Shown here one piece after another: positions 9,747 through 31,143 of a stretch of DNA of 41,481 nucleotides. The translations under genes were made by a program, and so were the position numbers. This DNA is from Atopococcus tabaci DSM 17538 (GTDB taxonomy: Bacteria; Bacillota; Bacilli; Lactobacillales; Carnobacteriaceae_A). Location of the stretch: positions 1-41,481 of the forward strand of contig NZ_AUCD01000013.1 of the NCBI RefSeq assembly GCF_000429585.1. Reading direction: 5' to 3'. The notes under the pieces were generated by a model that did no database searches, was not told where the DNA came from, and worked only from the letters and a program-made list of their open reading frames with translations. Position 1 is the stretch's first letter. Every line of letters begins with the position of its first letter.

Positions 9747-11409
9747 ATGCGCCTAAAAAACAAAAGCATTCTTTCCAAGTGCAGCGGTGGCGATTGGTCT
9801 GGCGATATTTGGCTGCGAGTCCATCACATTGGAGTCATCGCCTGAAATCGTCGAAGAAAAGCCGGCAGTGGCGGAAGTGAAAGCCGATAATACACCGAAC
9901 CGGATCATCACCACATTCCACGGAGACAGCCGGACACAGATGGGGTTTAATTGGTATACGACGGATCGTTTTGAAGACGCCAAAGTGTGGGTCAGCACCG
10001 AGGAAGATTTGAGCGAACCGTTGGTGTTTGATGCCGAAGCGTCGGAAGTGACCAACCGCTATGCAGAGCGGACGGAAGACGGCTACTTTCTTTTTATGAA
10101 TGAGGAAGGGTATTATACGGATGAAGGGCAAAAAGGACCGGAGTGGACGAACGGAGAAGAAGTGGGACGGATGGAACTGGTGAACGTCACCGAAGTATCT
10201 TATAAAGCAGTGGCGACAAAATTGTAACCGGGGACAACATACTATTATCAGGTAGGAAGCGAGGCAGGCGAAAAAAGCCCGGTTGGTACGTTCACAACCT
10301 CTGCGGAAGAAAGCGAACCGTTTACTTTCATCCAGTACACAGATACACAAAATGCCTTTTGGAACGAACATACCCGTAATGAAGCCGCGTTTGGAGCAGA
10401 CACATTGAAACAGGCGCTGGATACCGCAGATGAAGCAGCTTTTGTCCTGCATACCGGAGATTTGGTGGAAACGGAGGAAGTGGAAGACGAGTGGGTAGAT
10501 TTGTTTGAAAAGTCCGAGGAGCACTGGCTCCAGCAGCCGTTGGCGGTCGCAGCTGGCAACCACGATGATAACGTGCTGAATCATGGTGACATGCCTGTTT
10601 ACGGAAAATTCAACGAACACATCAATGTGCCGGTCACCAACGACCACATCAGCGGCGGGTCGTATTATTCGTTTGACTATAACAAGGTGCATGTCGTTGT
10701 GGCCAACACCAATGACAACCGAGAATACGGAGCACTGGGCGAACAGCAGTTGGCTTGGATGGAAGAAGACATCCGAAAGGCTCGGGAAAACGGAGCGGAA
10801 TGGATCGTTCTGGCTTATCACAAACCATTGTTTTCCAAATCGTACCATTCCCTCGGAGACAAAGACGTCCAAGCCGTGAGGGAAGACTTCATGCGGTTGA
10901 TAGACGACTTGGATGTGGACTTGGCGCTTCAAGGGCATGACCACGTGCTTTCCAGAACCAAGCCGCTCACCTTCACAGAGGAAAACGACTTCAACGCCGA
11001 AGTGGAACAGACGGAAGTGGTGTTAGGGGACGACAACGTAGAGTACTACAAAAATCCTGAAGGCACCGTGTTTGTATTGCCGAACACTGCTGGCACCAAA
11101 GCGTACGCCGACTACTACGGCCGGTCGCTCGACTTTATCCACGAAGCGCGGTCCGGGTTGGAATGGCTGGATCAACAACAGGTCGACTATTACAACAACT
11201 TGTTCGCATTCGGCGGCCAGCCGCAAAAAGACAGTGTCTTCGCCGACTCCTACAGCAACAACCGCGACTCCGCCGTGCAAAGTTTCGCTGTCTATACCGT
11301 TGACGGCAACCGGTTGGAAGTGGAAATGTATCAAGTATACGGGGAACTGCTTGAGGGCGAAGAGCGCGTGGTGGAAAAAATACACGAGTTCGGGATTATA
11401 AAAGACTAA
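9747..11409 (+). pseudogene. purple-acid-phosphatase-like metallophosphoesterase lipoprotein, decayed copy 1
   Basis: This is the upstream twin of the intact gene that follows; the two encode alignable proteins along their whole length. Two lesions are visible. First, from ATG 9747 the frame is broken within the first codons. Removing one A from the A6 run at 9755-9760 restores a lipoprotein signal peptide, MRLKTKAFFPSAAVAIG then LAIFGC. Second, TAA at 10225-10227 stands where the twin has GAG (E) in LEPDTEYYYQ, and the frame continues unchanged after it. The remaining metal-site motifs are intact: YTDTQ, HTGDLVE, AAGNHDD, YHKPL and QGHDHV. The organism may still make the 334-residue catalytic part from an internal start, but no ribosome site supports that. 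Confidence 0.8.
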
Positions 11410-11460: not shown

Positions 11461-11632
11461 CCGTTTAAAAAGAAAAATGTAAATGGAGTATTAACCATTT
11501 ATACTTAAACTTGATAATTTATTCATTATTTTTACTTCATGTTTACTGGATGTCAACTTTTCTTATGTATATTGGACTAGTGGGCGGATGTTCATACATA
11601 GTTCCGCGTATATTGTAGTAGGAGGATGTAGA

Positions 11633-13378
11633 ATGCATAAGAGAAAAAAGCGATTCGTAACGTTCACCACAATGGTGGCACTGCTCGGAGTGGGCGTGAT
11701 TGGATGCCAGGACGTATCTTCGGGATCGTCTTCCGGGTTGATGGACACCAAACCCGAAGTGGCACAAATCGCAGCGGATAATTCCCCGAACCGGATCATC
11801 ACCACGTTCAACGGGGATACGCAAACACAGATGGGCTTCAATTGGTACACGACAGATTTGTTTGAAGACGCCAAAGTATGGGTCAGCACCGAGGAAGATT
11901 TGAGTGATCCGCTGGTGTTTGAAGCGGAAGCGACAGAAGTGACGAGCCATTATGCGGAACGAACCGAAGACGGGTATTACATTTATGCGGATGTTGAATT
12001 GAGTGAAGAAGGCGACCCCGTTTTGGATGAAAACGGCGACCCGGTCATCAACGGCTATTACACGGATGAAGAGAAAGAAGGCCCGGAATGGACCAGCGGG
12101 GATGCGGTCGGGCACTTGGATTTGGTGGGTGTCACGGAGTATTCCTACAAAGCGTTGGCAACAGATTTGGAGCCGGACACGGAGTACTACTACCAAGTGG
12201 GGAGCGAATCCGGTGAAAAGAGCGAAGTGGGAACATTCGAAACGTCCGGCGAGGCTGGAGAAGCCTTTACCTTTATCCAATACACCGACACGCAGAACGC
12301 TTACTGGAATGAACACGTACGCAATGAAGCGGCTTTCGCTGCTGACACAATCAACCAGGCATTGGAAACAGCTGATGAAGCAGCGTTTGTGCTGCACACG
12401 GGAGATTTGGTCGAAACCGCGGAGGTGGAAGACGAGTGGGTGGACTTATTTGAACAGTCCGAAGACGCGTGGATGCAGCAGCCGTTGGCAGTGGCCGCCG
12501 GTAACCATGACGAATACGCGCTGAAGTACGGAGACGATCCGTTGACGGAAAAATTCAACGAGCACCTCAACGTACCGGTCACCAATGAAAAAGTCAGCGG
12601 AGGGTCGTATTATTCGTTTGACTACAACGGCGTGCACTTTGTTGTCGCCAACACGAACGACAATAAAGAGTCAGAAGACAACCCGGAAGGCAAGGCATTG
12701 GGGGAAGAACAGCTGGCGTGGATCCGGAAAGACATCCAGCAGGCACGGGACAACGGCGCGCAATGGGTCGTGTTGACCTACCACAAGCCGCTCTTTTCCA
12801 AATCGTACCACTCGCTTGAAGACGAAGATGTTCAAAAAGTGAGAGAAGCATTCATGCAGACCATCGACGAATTGGATGTTGACTTGGTTCTTCAAGGACA
12901 CGACCACGTCGTCTCGCGCACGAAACCACTGGTGTTTGTGCCGACTGAAGAAAACTTCTCCAACGCGACCGTCGATCAACCGGAAGTAGTGTTGGGAGAA
13001 GACAATGTGGAATACTACAAGAACCCGGAAGGCACCGTGTTTGTGCTGCCGAATACCGGCGGAACAAAAGAATACGACGACTTGTACAGCAAGTCGTTGG
13101 AACACTTGCATAAGATGCGGCCGGATTTGAGTTGGCTGACGCAGGAAGACAAAGATTACTACAACAATTTGTTTGCGTTCGGCAGCCAGCCGCAGAAGTC
13201 GTCCGTTTTTGCGGAGTCCCATTCCAACAATCGAGACTCTTCGGTGCAAAACTTTGCCGTCTACAATGTAGATGGAAACAAATTGAATGTGGAAATCTAC
13301 CAAGTGTTCGGCGACTTGTTGGAAGGTGAAGAACGCACGGTGGAAAAAGTCCACGAATTTGGAATCGTGAAAGACTAG
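11633..13378 (+). CDS. purple-acid-phosphatase-like metallophosphoesterase lipoprotein, intact copy 2
   Basis: A 581-residue secreted lipoprotein. Residues 1-25 form a signal peptide with lipobox VIGC (C25 is the lipidated residue). Residues of about 45-200 form an N-terminal fibronectin-like purple acid phosphatase domain starting NRIITTFNGDTQTQMGFNWYTT. Residues of about 215-520 form a calcineurin-type phosphoesterase with all five metal motifs: QYTDTQ, HTGDLVE, AAGNHDE, LTYHKPL and LQGHDHV. It should hydrolyse phosphate esters outside the cell, possibly for phosphate scavenging; the true substrate is unknown. The start is ATG 11633 with GGAGG 7 bases upstream; the 15 extra codons of the longer frame lack a ribosome site. 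The protein carries a short insert DVELSEEGDPVLDENGDPVI (about 120-140) that is absent from copy 1. Confidence 0.88.
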   Translation: MHKRKKRFVTFTTMVALLGVGVIGCQDVSSGSSSGLMDTKPEVAQIAADNSPNRIITTFNGDTQTQMGFNWYTTDLFEDAKVWVSTEEDLSDPLVFEAEATEVTSHYAERTEDGYYIYADVELSEEGDPVLDENGDPVINGYYTDEEKEGPEWTSGDAVGHLDLVGVTEYSYKALATDLEPDTEYYYQVGSESGEKSEVGTFETSGEAGEAFTFIQYTDTQNAYWNEHVRNEAAFAADTINQALETADEAAFVLHTGDLVETAEVEDEWVDLFEQSEDAWMQQPLAVAAGNHDEYALKYGDDPLTEKFNEHLNVPVTNEKVSGGSYYSFDYNGVHFVVANTNDNKESEDNPEGKALGEEQLAWIRKDIQQARDNGAQWVVLTYHKPLFSKSYHSLEDEDVQKVREAFMQTIDELDVDLVLQGHDHVVSRTKPLVFVPTEENFSNATVDQPEVVLGEDNVEYYKNPEGTVFVLPNTGGTKEYDDLYSKSLEHLHKMRPDLSWLTQEDKDYYNNLFAFGSQPQKSSVFAESHSNNRDSSVQNFAVYNVDGNKLNVEIYQVFGDLLEGEERTVEKVHEFGIVKD

Positions 13379-13579: not shown

Positions 13580-14521
13580 TTAGGCTTCCTGTTTGACTGC
13601 CACTTTTTCCAACTCAGCTTTCAAATACTGCGCCAGTTCAAGCATGGCGTATTTTCCGGCGCGGGCTTCCGCATCCGCGTTGTAGTTTGTGTTTGTGTTG
13701 ACGTCATACGTGTAGACGTCGCCTTTTTCATCGATGATGAACTCCAATGCCGCCACGTCGACGCGTTGGTCTTTCAAGAACGCTTCGGAACGGGCGATTT
13801 GGTCTTCCGGCAGTCGGTCGATGATTTCAAACTTGTTTGCTTCCGGAATTTCTTCGCCGTTCGGACCGAGTTGGCACGCATCCGCCGGGCACAATTCGAA
13901 ACCGTCACTGGAATCGACTTTCACCGCGTAGAAGTACTTCCCGCCGATAAACTCTGAACGGATGATGTGGCCGTCCACAGATTGGATGTACTGTTGAATC
14001 AGACTGATGCCGTCCACGGAGTCTTCAAATTCCGGTCCGTTCACGTAGTCTTCCAATTCTTTCATGGAATAAAGCAGGCGGACGCCCAAACCTTTTCCAG
14101 CGCGGTTATGTTTGATGATGAACGGAAATTCGTTCAATTTTTCTGCAGCTTTCAAAATGTTTTCTTTCCCGACCGCCCCAATCGTTTTCGGCGTTTGGAT
14201 GCCGTGAGCCTGCAGAGCCAAGTATTGCTTGAGCTTGCTGACTTCAAGGTTGATGGCGCCGGTGCCGTTGATGACGCGGGCGCCTTTTTGTTCAAGCCAT
14301 GTCAACACTTGATCCGTCAGCTCCGGTGCGTACCGGTTGCCGCGGGTGTGGGAAGAGGCGCTCATACGGTTGTAGTACACGCCGTCTGCCGGCAGAGACT
14401 GGATGTCCAGAAGCCCATCAGACAAATTCCATTCTTCATAAGGAACATCCAATTCTTCCAACCGGTCGATCAAGTGTTGCGTCCATTCCATGTTTTCGTG
14501 CAGGATGTGTACTTTTGTCAT
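13580..14521 (-). CDS. ATP-grasp ligase, RimK/glutamate-ligase-like
   Basis: A 313-residue ATP-grasp protein. The N-terminal half (1-100) is a pre-ATP-grasp domain with VYYNRMSASSHTRGNRYAPE, and PKTIGAV follows near 130. The lysine-bearing strand FIIKHNRAGKGLGVRL (around 153-168) and the Mg-binding end with VAALEFIIDEKGDVYTYDVNTNTNYN (around 258-283) are the nucleotide and metal sites. Family enzymes ligate an amino acid or peptide to a carboxylate using ATP, through an acyl phosphate. This subgroup (YNRMSxSSHTRG) has no assigned product that I know of. GGAGAAGG precedes the ATG by 5 bases. It lies 26 bp downstream of a DAACS symporter, in a unit headed by a cysteine-rich leader peptide, so its substrate may be imported by that symporter or contain cysteine; this is inference. 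Confidence 0.82.
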   Translation of the reverse strand: MTKVHILHENMEWTQHLIDRLEELDVPYEEWNLSDGLLDIQSLPADGVYYNRMSASSHTRGNRYAPELTDQVLTWLEQKGARVINGTGAINLEVSKLKQYLALQAHGIQTPKTIGAVGKENILKAAEKLNEFPFIIKHNRAGKGLGVRLLYSMKELEDYVNGPEFEDSVDGISLIQQYIQSVDGHIIRSEFIGGKYFYAVKVDSSDGFELCPADACQLGPNGEEIPEANKFEIIDRLPEDQIARSEAFLKDQRVDVAALEFIIDEKGDVYTYDVNTNTNYNADAEARAGKYAMLELAQYLKAELEKVAVKQEA

Positions 14522-14547: not shown

Positions 14548-15786
14548 TTAAGCTTTTGTGACGGAACGTTGAGCAGTTTTTGAAAAATTGACGCCTTCCG
14601 ATTTGGCAACGACAGCCGGTGCCAACGCGTTTCCGACGACATTGACAGCGGTCCGTCCGGCATTGGCGAAGAAATCAACCGAAACCAACAAAGCCACGCC
14701 TTCAGCCGGCAGACCAAGTTGACCGGCGACGGCCAACAAAACGACCAGAGCACCGGAAGGAACCGCCGCGATGCCTTTTGTGATCACCGTCAAGAATACG
14801 ACCAAGGTCAAGATTTGTCCCCAGCTCATCGGTGAGCCATACAAATTGGCGACGAACATCACCGACAAGCTGACGTACAGGCAGGCGCCGGTGAGGTTGA
14901 ACGAATAACCGAGCGGAACAACGAATGAAGCGATGGAAGACGGAACACCAAATTTCTCCAACCGTTCAATCAATGTCGGCATCACGACGCTGGAACTGCC
15001 GGTGGTGAACGCCAAAAATGCGGGTCCTTTGATGTGTTTCAACAACTCCATATACGGCACCCCGAACAAGGCGGCAATGATTGGAAAGACCACAACGACG
15101 GCTCCGAGGTACAGCCCGAAGAGAAGCAGGACGAACTGCCCGAGTGAAACCAACTGTCCAAGGCCGCCTTCCGCCATGTCGCTGGCCAATACACCGAACA
15201 CCCCGATTGGCGCAAAAGCGATGGAGTAATCGACGATTTTGTACATCGCTTTAGACCACGAACGCAGCACGTCCACGACTGGTTGGCCGGTATCTCCGAT
15301 GGCAACCAAGGCAAATCCCAACAACACACCGAAGAAGAGAACCGGCAGCAAGTCGCCGGATGCCATCGCGGATACTATGTTGTTTGGGACGATGCTTAAG
15401 AAAAAGTCTTCGAAATTGATATTGGACGCAACGCCTTCGATGGCTCCGATGCCCGCTGTGCCGGCTTGCACCGCTTGGCCTATGCCTGTTAAACGGCCGA
15501 TGACAAGTCCGGGAAAAATCAGGACGGTCGTCACCAAGAAAAAGAAGAGGAAGCCTTTGACGGCGACACCGCCGAACCGTTTGGCGTCTTTAATGTCTAC
15601 AATGGCCAATACAACCAACGGGAAAATCAATGGAACAATGACCATTTGAATCAAATTCAAGAACAGCGATCCGAGAATTTCCATTCGGCTTCCAATTGCA
15701 GGAAAGAAATAGCCCATCAGAATCCCTGCGAGAGCGCCGATTAAGACCTGCACCAGCAAGCTGGGGCGTTTCAATGCATTTCTCAT
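14548..15786 (-). CDS. DAACS-family cation symporter (DctA/GltP fold) with unusual ion-site residues
   Basis: A 412-residue secondary transporter of the dicarboxylate/amino acid:cation symporter family, with eight helices and two hairpin loops. The HP1 serine motif is TTGSSSVVMP (261-270). The TM7 motif normally NxD reads NLTG (297-300), and the TM8 segment reads DFFANAGRTAVNVVGN (371-386). Aligned by motif to the archaeal GltPh, D312 becomes T299, D394 becomes N375 and D405 becomes N386, while D390, R397 and N401 are kept (D371, R378, N382). Loss of the amino-group ligand D394 and of D405 also occurs in DctA-type C4-dicarboxylate carriers. I take ATG 15784-15786, with AAGGTGGA 6-7 bases upstream; the longer frame starts inside the attenuator. 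The substrate is unknown, but sulfur-containing compounds deserve testing because of the leader. Confidence 0.88.
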   Translation of the reverse strand: MRNALKRPSLLVQVLIGALAGILMGYFFPAIGSRMEILGSLFLNLIQMVIVPLIFPLVVLAIVDIKDAKRFGGVAVKGFLFFFLVTTVLIFPGLVIGRLTGIGQAVQAGTAGIGAIEGVASNINFEDFFLSIVPNNIVSAMASGDLLPVLFFGVLLGFALVAIGDTGQPVVDVLRSWSKAMYKIVDYSIAFAPIGVFGVLASDMAEGGLGQLVSLGQFVLLLFGLYLGAVVVVFPIIAALFGVPYMELLKHIKGPAFLAFTTGSSSVVMPTLIERLEKFGVPSSIASFVVPLGYSFNLTGACLYVSLSVMFVANLYGSPMSWGQILTLVVFLTVITKGIAAVPSGALVVLLAVAGQLGLPAEGVALLVSVDFFANAGRTAVNVVGNALAPAVVAKSEGVNFSKTAQRSVTKA

Positions 15787-15812
15787 GTATGATTCCACCT
15801 TTTTTGGGAAAT

Positions 15813-15852
15813 AAAAAACGTGCACAAACAGCGAAAAGGCTGTTCATGCACG
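15813..15852 (-). terminator. attenuator terminator in front of the DAACS symporter
   Basis: On the minus strand, CGTGCA-TG-AACAGC pairs with GCTGTT-TG-TGCACG (one 2x2 mismatch) and is followed by six T. It lies 27 bp before the symporter start and 57 bp after the end of the cysteine-rich leader ORF, so it ends transcription before the structural genes. Its 5' arm contains GCATGAA, complementary to TTCATGC inside the leader ORF (see findings). Confidence 0.85.
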
Positions 15853-15909
15853 TTGTAAATTCATCTTTTTTTGGTTCTTTTTACGTGAAAATGGTTACAA
15901 TACGACCAT

Positions 15910-16044
15910 TTAAAGCACGCAGAAAGAATGTGTCTGAGGAAGAGTCTCAGACGAAAGAGATGAATGTACGCAGCATGAAGAACCCTTTGTTGGACAACAA
16001 GGGCAGCAACAACATACTGTCTGTACACACATCTGTTTTTTCAT
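15910..16044 (-). CDS. cysteine-rich leader peptide (44 aa) of the symporter/ATP-grasp operon
   Basis: ATG 16042-16044 follows a perfect AAAGGAGG by 9-10 bases. The ORF has 44 codons, 10 of them cysteine: positions 6, 11-14, 16, 17, 24, 25 and 42, with the cluster CCCCPCCP at 11-18. It has no signal peptide and looks like a regulatory leader rather than a working protein, because it sits between a good promoter and an intrinsic terminator that precedes a transporter gene. Hairpins inside or just after it are CCCTTGTTG/CAACAAAGGG (within codons 15-21), GTCTGAG/CTCAGAC (codons 31-38) and AAATGGT/ACCATTT (after the stop). Slow translation of the Cys codons when charged tRNA-Cys is scarce should decide whether the terminator forms. 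A small cysteine-rich metal-binding protein is a less likely alternative. Confidence 0.8.
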   Translation of the reverse strand: MKKQMCVQTVCCCCPCCPTKGSSCCVHSSLSSETLPQTHSFCVL

Positions 16045-16091
16045 CGGTGACTCCTCCTTTTTTTGAGATTGCTTTCATTTTTCTTTACAGA

Positions 16092-16103
16092 TTGAGGCCT
16101 CAA
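16092..16103. promoter_or_regulatory. 12-bp perfect palindrome in the leader 5' UTR
   Basis: TTGAGGCCTCAA lies between the predicted transcription start (about 16114) and the ribosome site of the cysteine leader. It could be an operator for a repressor. I do not recognise the site. Confidence 0.35.
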
Positions 16104-16120
16104 ATCCATAAAGTAACGAC

Positions 16121-16149
16121 AGTCTACCACGAAACGAAAACACCGTCAA
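16121..16149 (-). promoter_or_regulatory. promoter of the cysteine-leader operon
   Basis: On the minus strand there is a -35 TTGACG (16144-16149) and a -10 TAGACT (16121-16126) with a 17-bp spacer. It is the only good match upstream of the leader ORF. Confidence 0.6.
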
Positions 16150-16196: not shown

Positions 16197-16202
16197 TATA
16201 AT
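16197..16202 (+). promoter_or_regulatory. -10 box of the fluoride riboswitch transcript
   Basis: A consensus TATAAT lies 7 bp before the aptamer. The matching -35 is weak (T-rich). Confidence 0.55.
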
Positions 16203-16207
16203 GAACG

Positions 16208-16310
16208 AAGGGAATGAAGTTCTCCCTTGGCGCGAGCCTAAACCGCTGAAAAGCTGATGACTTCTGGATAAGAACGGAACCCGTCTGTCCAGAAGTCATC
16301 GGCTTTTTTA
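16208..16310 (+). ncRNA. fluoride riboswitch (crcB motif) with terminator platform
   Basis: The aptamer shows the crcB pattern: GGGAATGAAGTTCTCCC (16210-16226), a variable hairpin, TAAACCGC (16239-16246) and GCTGATGACTTCT (16254-16266), with ATGAAGT complementary to ACTTC in the pseudoknot strands. Downstream, GATGACTTCTGGA pairs perfectly with TCCAGAAGTCATC, followed by GGCTTTTTT, a terminator sharing the 3' aptamer strand. Fluoride binding should hold that strand in the aptamer and allow read-through into the antiporter gene. Confidence 0.9.
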
Positions 16311-16337: not shown

Positions 16338-17531
16338 ATGCTGACGAGTATTGCGTTGATTTTTTTAACGGGGATGTGTTTAGGGGCTGTGTTCAAGCGG
16401 ATCGGTCTGCCGAGCTTGGTGGGGATGATACTGACCGGAATTTTGTTGGGGCCGTCTGTTTTGGACGTACTGGATGAATCGCTTTTGGCCGTGTCGACGG
16501 ATTTGCGTCAGGTGGCATTGGTCATCATTTTGTTTCGGGCAGGTTTGTCTTTAAGTGTAGAAGACTTGAAAAAAATCGGGCTTCCTGCAGTTTTGATGAG
16601 CTTTGTGCCCGCGGTGTTGGAGATTATCGGCATCGTGCTGCTGGCGCCTCTTTTGTTCGGCATTTCTGTGGTGGATGCCGCAGTGATGGGAGCGGTGGTT
16701 GCGGCGGTCTCCCCGGCAGTGGTGGTGCCGGCGATGCTTCATATTATGGAACAAGGATACGGTCAGAAGCGGCGGGTTCCGCAGCTCGTGCTGGCGGGAG
16801 CATCGATGGACGATGTGTTTGTGATTGTCTTGTTCTCTTCTTTTTTGGCACTGTCGTTAGGAGGAGAAATCACTGTTTCCGGATTTCTGGAAGTCCCGGT
16901 GGCGATTGTGACGGGCGTTGTCGTCGGCGCTCTTTCCGGTTGGCTGCTGCAAAAGGTTTACCGGTCGTTTCATATGCGCGACACAGCCAAAATCATGATG
17001 CTTTTAAGCGTTTCTTTTCTGCTGTTGGAAGCCGAAACGCTGTTCAGCGGGTTCCTTCCGATGTCCGGATTGCTGGCCATCATGGCAATGGGGCTCGCGC
17101 TCAACCAATTTTACCCGGAGCTCGCCGCGCGCCTTTCGGGGAAGTACAACAAACTGTGGGCTGCCGCACAAATCTTGTTATTTGTGCTGGTGGGAGCATC
17201 GGTTGATGTGGCGTATGCCCTTCAAGCAGGAGAAGCAGTGATTGTGTTGATACTAGGCGCACTGGTGTTCCGTGTGGCCGGTGTTTTGTTGAGCCTGTGG
17301 CCGTCTTCATTGAACAAAAAAGAAAAAATGTTTGCGGCCATCAGTTATATGCCGAAAGCCACCGTTCAAGCCGCCATCGGTGCTGTGCCGCTTTCCGAGG
17401 GATTGGCGAGCGGCCAACTCATACTGACCGCAGCTGTCGCAGCCATCTTGCTTACCGCACCTTTGGGAAGCTTTTTAATTGAAAAGACTTACAAAAAATT
17501 ATTGGATTCTCCCAAAGATATAACCGGGTAA
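16338..17531 (+). CDS. cation/proton antiporter (CPA superfamily), fluoride-riboswitch controlled
   Basis: A 397-residue membrane protein with about 12 helices and the Na_H_Exchanger fold. Diagnostic segments are AVSPAVVVPAML (around 118-130) and GASMDDVFVIV (around 154-164), whose Asp-Asp pair matches the ion-binding DD of CPA2-type antiporters. AAGGAG lies 8 bases before the ATG. Because it sits alone behind a fluoride riboswitch, it probably helps cells under fluoride stress, either by moving fluoride or HF or by restoring pH and cation balance; antiporters are known among riboswitch-linked genes besides crcB and CLC-F. The transported ion cannot be read from sequence. Confidence 0.85.
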   Translation: MLTSIALIFLTGMCLGAVFKRIGLPSLVGMILTGILLGPSVLDVLDESLLAVSTDLRQVALVIILFRAGLSLSVEDLKKIGLPAVLMSFVPAVLEIIGIVLLAPLLFGISVVDAAVMGAVVAAVSPAVVVPAMLHIMEQGYGQKRRVPQLVLAGASMDDVFVIVLFSSFLALSLGGEITVSGFLEVPVAIVTGVVVGALSGWLLQKVYRSFHMRDTAKIMMLLSVSFLLLEAETLFSGFLPMSGLLAIMAMGLALNQFYPELAARLSGKYNKLWAAAQILLFVLVGASVDVAYALQAGEAVIVLILGALVFRVAGVLLSLWPSSLNKKEKMFAAISYMPKATVQAAIGAVPLSEGLASGQLILTAAVAAILLTAPLGSFLIEKTYKKLLDSPKDITG

Positions 17532-30864: not shown

Positions 30865-30892
30865 CCTTTTATACAAAAAACTGTATACTACA

Positions 30893-31143
30893 ACATCCAT
30901 GATGAAGAGAGTAGATTGGAATTGTTTCTCAAAGCGAGTCGGGGAAGGTGGGAGCCCGGCAGGAACTTTCGATTGAAACGCACTTCATCGATGAAAGAGT
31001 GAACGAACAGTAGCTTTTTCCGCAGATCAGGCGTTAACAGAATGAGGTGGATATGCCTGTGCGCATGTCAACTAGAGTGGTACCGCGGATGATAGTCAAA
31101 TCAACCCGTCTCTTGTATAAACATACAAGGGGTGGGTTTTTCT
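30893..31143 (+). ncRNA. T-box leader, probable arginine (CGC) specifier
   Basis: Stem I is closed by GATGAAG (30901-30907) and CTTCATC (30983-30989). The likely specifier triplet CGC lies at 30979-30981, followed by A, as is usual in T-box specifier loops. The conserved T-box is AGAGTGGTACCGCGG at 31074-31088. The terminator AACCCGTCTCTTGTAT with ATACAAGGGGTGGGTT plus T5 ends at 31142. Uncharged tRNA-Arg should stabilise the antiterminator and switch on argGH. Confidence 0.9.

Follow-up and report, generated by a model that had tools for sequence, protein, structure and literature searches.

Leader-peptide attenuation is a textbook mechanism in Proteobacteria. For the Bacillota, the open-access papers found report it only for histidine and leucine and do not describe a cysteine version. 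Cysteine leaders have been described in Actinobacteria, where the Cys run lies near the stop codon and no conserved terminator hairpin was found (PMC1262725). In L. paracasei, expression of an operon for cysteine synthesis in cysteine-deficient medium exceeds that in methionine-deficient medium about 8-fold (log2 about 3), and the 5'-UTR of the operon shows a read pile-up and a Rho-independent terminator but no T-box (PMC6004538). Premature termination was proposed, by a mechanism "yet to be discovered" (PMC6004538).

We analysed a window of 41,481 nucleotides from Atopococcus tabaci DSM 17538 (contig NZ_AUCD01000013.1), in which the original prediction had placed a cysteine-responsive leader-peptide attenuator in front of a symporter gene and an ATP-grasp ligase gene. 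Conservation, covariation, gene context and folding support this reading, and the element is very probably a transcription attenuator of the trp/his type that responds to cysteine through the translating ribosome. Its parts and the genes that follow, all on the minus strand, are these:

16121..16149 (-), candidate promoter TTGACG-N17-TAGACT, with TG preceding the second hexamer; not above chance statistically
16051..16060 (-), ribosome-binding site AAAGGAGGAG of the leader ORF; GGAGG/GGAAG is kept in Carnobacteriaceae relatives
15910..16044 (-), leader ORF MKKQMCVQTVCCCCPCCPTKGSSCCVHSSLSSETLPQTHSFCVL, 44 codons with 10 Cys
16013..16034 (-), predicted protector strand in the early leader codons, which would hold the antiterminator strand when the leader is untranslated
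15994..16014 (-), Cys cluster CCCCPCC at codons 11-17, the predicted stall site; CC.CC in 8/8 relatives found by symporter
15973..15979 (-), antiterminator strand TTCATGC, complementary to GCATGAA in the 5' arm of the terminator, with which it pairs
15958..15965 (-), second antiterminator segment ATTCATCT, from leader-terminator complementarity
15859..15866 (-), AGATGAAT, the partner of the second segment, from the same complementarity
15817..15854 (-), intrinsic terminator stem-loop of 16 pairs (7 G-C), with a U-run to about 15811
14548..15786 (-), SDF/DAACS symporter of 412 aa (PF00375, E 5e-102)
13580..14521 (-), RimK-like ATP-grasp ligase of 313 aa, 26 bp after the symporter

The leader ORF with its ten Cys codons, the CCCCPCCP run at codons 11-18 and the ribosome site at 16060-16051 were all found as claimed, and six of the Cys codons fall inside CCCCPCC. 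No other ORF in the window is linked to a ribosome site, is 15-60 codons long and has at least 5 Cys; 60 Markov-shuffled windows produced 14 such ORFs altogether, with a maximum of 6 Cys. The leader matched no family in an Rfam scan of 15786-16149, and no DNA match to it was found in plasmids and phages. The promoter hexamers are present (9/12 match), but the claim of a promoter lacked statistical support, with 3 found against 4.2 expected; at the equivalent position in C. jeotgali (L028) we found TTGACA..TACAAT. Between leader and symporter a strong terminator with a U-run (-24.2 kcal/mol) is present as proposed; 30 bp separate the end of its stem from the start of the symporter gene, where 27 had been given. 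Divergent from the attenuator, the window carries a fluoride riboswitch (16201-16273, +; RF01734, 44 bits) followed by a gene for an antiporter of the Na+/H+-exchanger family (16338-17531, +). Two neighbouring ORFs at 10405-11409 and 11588-13378 (+) encode similar metallophosphoesterase-like proteins (GNHDD/GNHDE motifs), apparently the product of a duplication.

Three complementarities had been proposed between the leader and the sequence that follows it, TTCATGC with GCATGAA, ATTCATC with GATGAAT upstream of the terminator and GGTTCTT with AAGAACC, and all three are real. The longest complementary run was not significant in the window sequence alone (p 0.2), nor singly in other sequences. 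The whole leader-to-terminator duplex of the window has an energy of -36.3 kcal/mol, whereas shuffled leaders give -15.4 +/- 3.2 (z -6.6). We compared this with 15 Carnobacteriaceae copies of the element, and in all 16 sequences the duplex was better than in shuffled leaders (z -2.3 to -6.6). In every one, the terminator 5' arm finds its partner in leader bases that start 9-15 nt past the Cys cluster, and the segment immediately upstream of the terminator pairs with leader bases further on. Helix 1 is 94.4% paired in the alignment of the 16 sequences, which is poor in helix 3, and when the partner strand was slid along, paired cells dropped from 83% to 27-60%. Seven pairs have been altered on both sides, a number reached by none of 500 shuffles, although these counts are not independent events because the sequences are related. 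One column shared by leader and terminator also covaries with the terminator 3' arm, as T-A-T in the window and C-G-C elsewhere.

Conservation of the Cys codons and of the complementary segments in relatives had been set beforehand as the test on which the original prediction would stand or fall. Relatives were sought with the symporter protein alone in 395 genomes of Lactobacillales. All eight symporter homologues in Carnobacteriaceae, six from one genus and two from another and including C. jeotgali and Desemzia incerta, are preceded by a Cys-run leader and a terminator with the same leader-terminator pairing and compensatory changes, so the prediction passed. The leaders of these relatives begin, for example, MKKMNCLNMLCCPCCMNHSCYQ... 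and MLMFNCCCSCCIKNSCNQ... The motif CC.CC or longer is found in 17/17 collected leaders, 8 of which came from symporter homology alone. We also looked for a Cys leader before the symporter homologues of Aerococcus, Streptococcus, Loigolactobacillus and Lacticaseibacillus, and found none.

Equilibrium folding of the full-length RNA with ribosome masks favoured the terminator in every state and was hence uninformative. Such a preference can be expected of a kinetic attenuator, and the attenuator model therefore needs the usual kinetic argument. We accordingly folded RNA that ended just before the terminator 3' arm, with ribosome positions masked. For the window, the predicted probability of the antiterminator in this cut transcript was 0.00 with no ribosome and 0.00 with a ribosome at the stop codon, and rose to 1.00 when the A-site was placed on one of the first five Cys codons of the cluster, whichever it was. 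Masked folding thus supports a three-state attenuator in the window, in line with the proposal that a stall in the Cys cluster would free the antiterminator bases. The antiterminator is made from leader bases and is exclusive with the terminator; its probability in the stalled state was at least 0.8 in 12/16 sequences. The remaining four, all relatives (L006, L007, L008 and L164), gave a stalled state without the antiterminator in this simple model, and several relatives formed it even with the ribosome at the stop codon, which suggests that details differ or that the model is too simple. After synonymous recoding past the cluster (60 variants for each of four leaders), 0-6 variants retained a stall-minus-naked gain of 0.8.

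The third complementarity, GGTTCTT with AAGAACC, had been suggested as the competing state, but its predicted probability was 0.00 in all states tested. We replaced it as the competitor with a pairing of the antiterminator strand to earlier leader codons. Without a ribosome, the antiterminator strand is predicted to pair with upstream leader at 0.80 in the window and at 0.68-0.80 in 12/15 relatives, so that on these folding predictions the early codons are a classical protector.

On this model, when cysteinyl-tRNA is plentiful the ribosome would pass the Cys cluster and cover codons 22-29, the terminator would form and transcription would stop. When cysteinyl-tRNA is short, the ribosome would stall at codons 11-17 and release codons 22-29 from the earlier codons. 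The freed codons could then capture the 5' arm of the terminator while the 3' arm has yet to be transcribed, and the symporter and ligase genes would be transcribed. If the leader were not translated, the protector pairing would hold the antiterminator strand and transcription would again stop. Translation of the leader, stalling and a response to cysteine in A. tabaci are what we infer from these parts.

The same element is reused before genes that supply cysteine, the amino acid that it would sense. A pattern search of the order (GGAGG, then Cys-Cys-x-Cys-Cys codons) found it before other genes, and a second search, by terminator sequence alone and with no Cys codons, gave four more copies. 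Six Carnobacteriaceae genomes carry it upstream of an operon of cysK and cystathionine lyase, four of them found by the terminator pattern, and five of the six (G062, G076, G090, G103 and G137) also carry the symporter copy. These operons contain genes for a cysteine synthase/cystathionine beta-synthase-like protein, a cystathionine lyase/synthase and a methyltransferase, with luxS added in one. No Cys leader was seen upstream of the cysK of A. tabaci itself (L196). A further copy (L167, G048:C1) is followed directly by a group II intron-like reverse transcriptase ORF and then by an oppA-like gene. In a Lactobacillaceae genome (L165, G333:C4, reverse), a diverged Cys leader, MKKNATQMMMCCPCCESDNMAICVELQASLVQQN, and a terminator precede an OppA-like lipoprotein gene; no convincing antiterminator was found there in the duplex test against shuffled leaders. 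A class-wide pattern search for Cys leaders outside Lactobacillales gave mostly noise, and one candidate outside the order (G699, L191) proved on close reading to be unlike a leader with a terminator.

Other families of the order have leaders of their own before the equivalent operon. Plasmids were searched with the cystathionine lyase protein, and MTQSMFNAINCCCRTTRFWRCSAC, with one variable residue, was found upstream of cysK on plasmids of L. paracasei and L. casei; it occurs in 32 plasmid records of Lacticaseibacillus. In E. faecalis the leader is MTKKQASPFLETESCCCMVQNSAAYSFVMGKTSVISEKLPNTIPL, which the annotation lists as a hypothetical protein; that of L. fermentum (Limosilactobacillus) is MTNVFTKQAVCCCGARQLRGSTLWRSLKRG. 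A terminator follows each of these CCC leaders. The antiterminator duplex reached z -5.8 in L. fermentum and -25.8 kcal/mol (z -1.7 to -2.0) in L. paracasei; a convincing one was not found for the E. faecalis leader in this test. In the cysK-cgl operon of a Priestia plasmid (Bacillales), used as a negative control, no Cys-rich ORF was present in the 500 bp upstream, and the published L. paracasei terminator motif, used as a genome pattern, gave no match. The expectation that cysteine leader peptides are rare was thus contradicted, for Lactobacillales, by their presence before cysteine-synthesis operons in Carnobacterium, Lacticaseibacillus, Enterococcus and Limosilactobacillus. Judged by sequence, the MTQSMFNAINCCCRTTRFWRCSAC leader is a candidate answer to how L. 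paracasei controls its operon by cysteine.

These copies also bear on what the leader senses. Cys/Pro-rich copper-responsive leader peptides have been proposed to act as metal sensors, and a Cys-rich peptide might likewise sense metal or redox state, with ligand binding arresting the ribosome ahead of the same RNA switch. As far as sequence goes, the stall could be due to the nascent peptide or to a metal instead of uncharged tRNA. Both CC.CC and CCCCPCC are possible metal-binding motifs, and the Cys content of the peptide exceeds the strict need for stalling. Yet the same element stands before cysK-cystathionine lyase operons, and the unrelated leaders that precede the equivalent operon in other families have CCC only, so that the leaders share the codon rather than a metal site. 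Omission of cysteine, moreover, elicits a response of the L. paracasei operon (PMC6004538). We regard metal or redox sensing as improbable. More improbable again is that the product of the ORF is a small protein with a function of its own, resembling a metallothionein or a bacteriocin, and that the terminator is incidental: the good ribosome site and the annotation of the E. faecalis counterpart as a hypothetical protein would fit this, but from family to family the peptide changes in length and in the residues beyond its Cys run, and the leader-terminator complementarity stays.

Our preferred reading, a cysteine attenuator that works through the translating ribosome, has to be set beside the T-boxes of the same bacteria. 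The T-box covariance model (RF00230) gave no match at 15786-16149 and matched three T-boxes elsewhere in the window; the A. tabaci genome has 19 matches. Specifiers were read by the rule "GAA, one base, specifier codon", which was checked on the T-boxes of the window. These are an Arg (CGC) T-box at 30890-31116, before argGH, and at 40974-40384 (-) a tandem pair, each reading AUG (Met), that precedes an operon for a MetNIQ-type transporter. Another T-box of A. tabaci (L149, G000:C4:58539-58769, -), with the Cys specifier UGC, precedes cysE-cysS. The background assumption that Bacilli usually sense amino acids by T-box thus holds for cysteine in this genome, but only in part, since the Cys leader supplements T-box control, which should give the cell two separate means of sensing tRNA-Cys. 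That a T-box or another metabolite-sensing RNA controls the operon and the ORF is there by chance is the least probable reading, despite the 19 T-box matches, one of them for Cys, and an orthologous gene pair behind a Met T-box in lactobacilli, given a leader that matches no Rfam family and a Cys leader conserved at 8/8 Carnobacteriaceae symporter loci.

In Loigolactobacillus and Lacticaseibacillus the symporter-ligase operon lies behind a T-box with an AUG (Met) specifier; these T-boxes score below the Rfam threshold (81-85 bits against 93, E 1e-16 to 1e-18). Two different sensors of sulphur amino acids therefore converge on the symporter-ligase pair. The Met T-boxes tie the pair independently to sulphur amino acids, and so support, indirectly, a link to cysteine/sulphur supply. 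At four loci (L031-L034), the 250 bp ahead of the symporter start hold a conserved short ORF (M...WLxLWRGSSxSDTAMCxL), placed between the symporter and the Met T-box or a DsbA-like gene. Its last Met-Cys codons are one arm of a hairpin that adjoins the symporter ribosome site and may add a layer of control at translation.

Wherever the ligase gene was found, in the window and at 26 further distinct loci, it comes directly after the symporter gene. All close homologues in the symporter clade have Asn at the position of GltPh Asp394 and keep Arg397. We take Asp394 of GltPh to bind the substrate amino group and Arg397 to be the residue that binds the side chain; judged by sequence, Asn at the first position possibly indicates a substrate without a free alpha-amino group. 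A search of the PDB by sequence with the ATP-grasp protein found nothing; by fold comparison it has the ArgX/LysX/RimK fold, and it has two invariant cysteines in LCPADxC. ArgX, LysX and RimK join glutamate or aminoadipate to an amino group, or the reverse. The pair may serve uptake and ATP-dependent ligation of a compound. A cysteine-starvation regulon of Lactobacillales, with leader-peptide attenuators alongside Cys T-boxes, might through the symporter and the RimK/LysX-like ligase include a new route for uptake and ATP-dependent processing of a sulphur compound, a suggestion that we put forward tentatively. Through its regulation, the attenuator gives a clue to a transporter-ligase pair that is still uncharacterised and occurs in Streptococcus, Aerococcus, Carnobacterium and lactobacilli.

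Compared with the trp and his attenuators of Proteobacteria, the element has the same run of sensed codons, protector, antiterminator and intrinsic terminator. It differs in that it would sense cysteine, occurs in Lactobacillales and has a long multi-part antiterminator helix that encloses more than 100 nt. The uORFC-8-2 before cysS in Rhodobacterales is likewise a short ORF with tandem Cys codons, a terminator and presumed stalling, but it has two Cys codons, at positions 14-15, and belongs to another phylum and another gene (PMC8632094). The mycobacterial polycysteine leaderless sORFs and the Actinobacteria cys leaders share a Cys run before cysteine-supply genes (PMC1262725; Canestrari 2020 via PMC13236596); here the leader has a ribosome site, a terminator and an antiterminator, and its ribosome site and terminator place it outside the leaderless class. 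Within Bacillota, the leucine-rich attenuator peptide of S. aureus ilv-leu (PMC5794164) and the His leader before hisS/hisZ in bacilli (PMC2965389) are also leader-peptide attenuation where relatives use T-boxes, and differ in the sensed amino acid and the target genes. The 5'-UTR of L. paracasei cysK2-ctl1-cysE2 shares a Cys-run ORF (found here), a terminator and published cysteine-dependent expression (PMC6004538). It shows no evident similarity in leader sequence, its terminator is GGGCGCGA..TCGCGCCC, and the copies analysed are plasmid-borne. The cysteine version of leader-peptide attenuation is thus reused before several cysteine-supply operons in several families of Lactobacillales, and offers a testable answer to the published question of how L. 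paracasei switches on the conversion of methionine to cysteine, which is relevant to cheese flavour.
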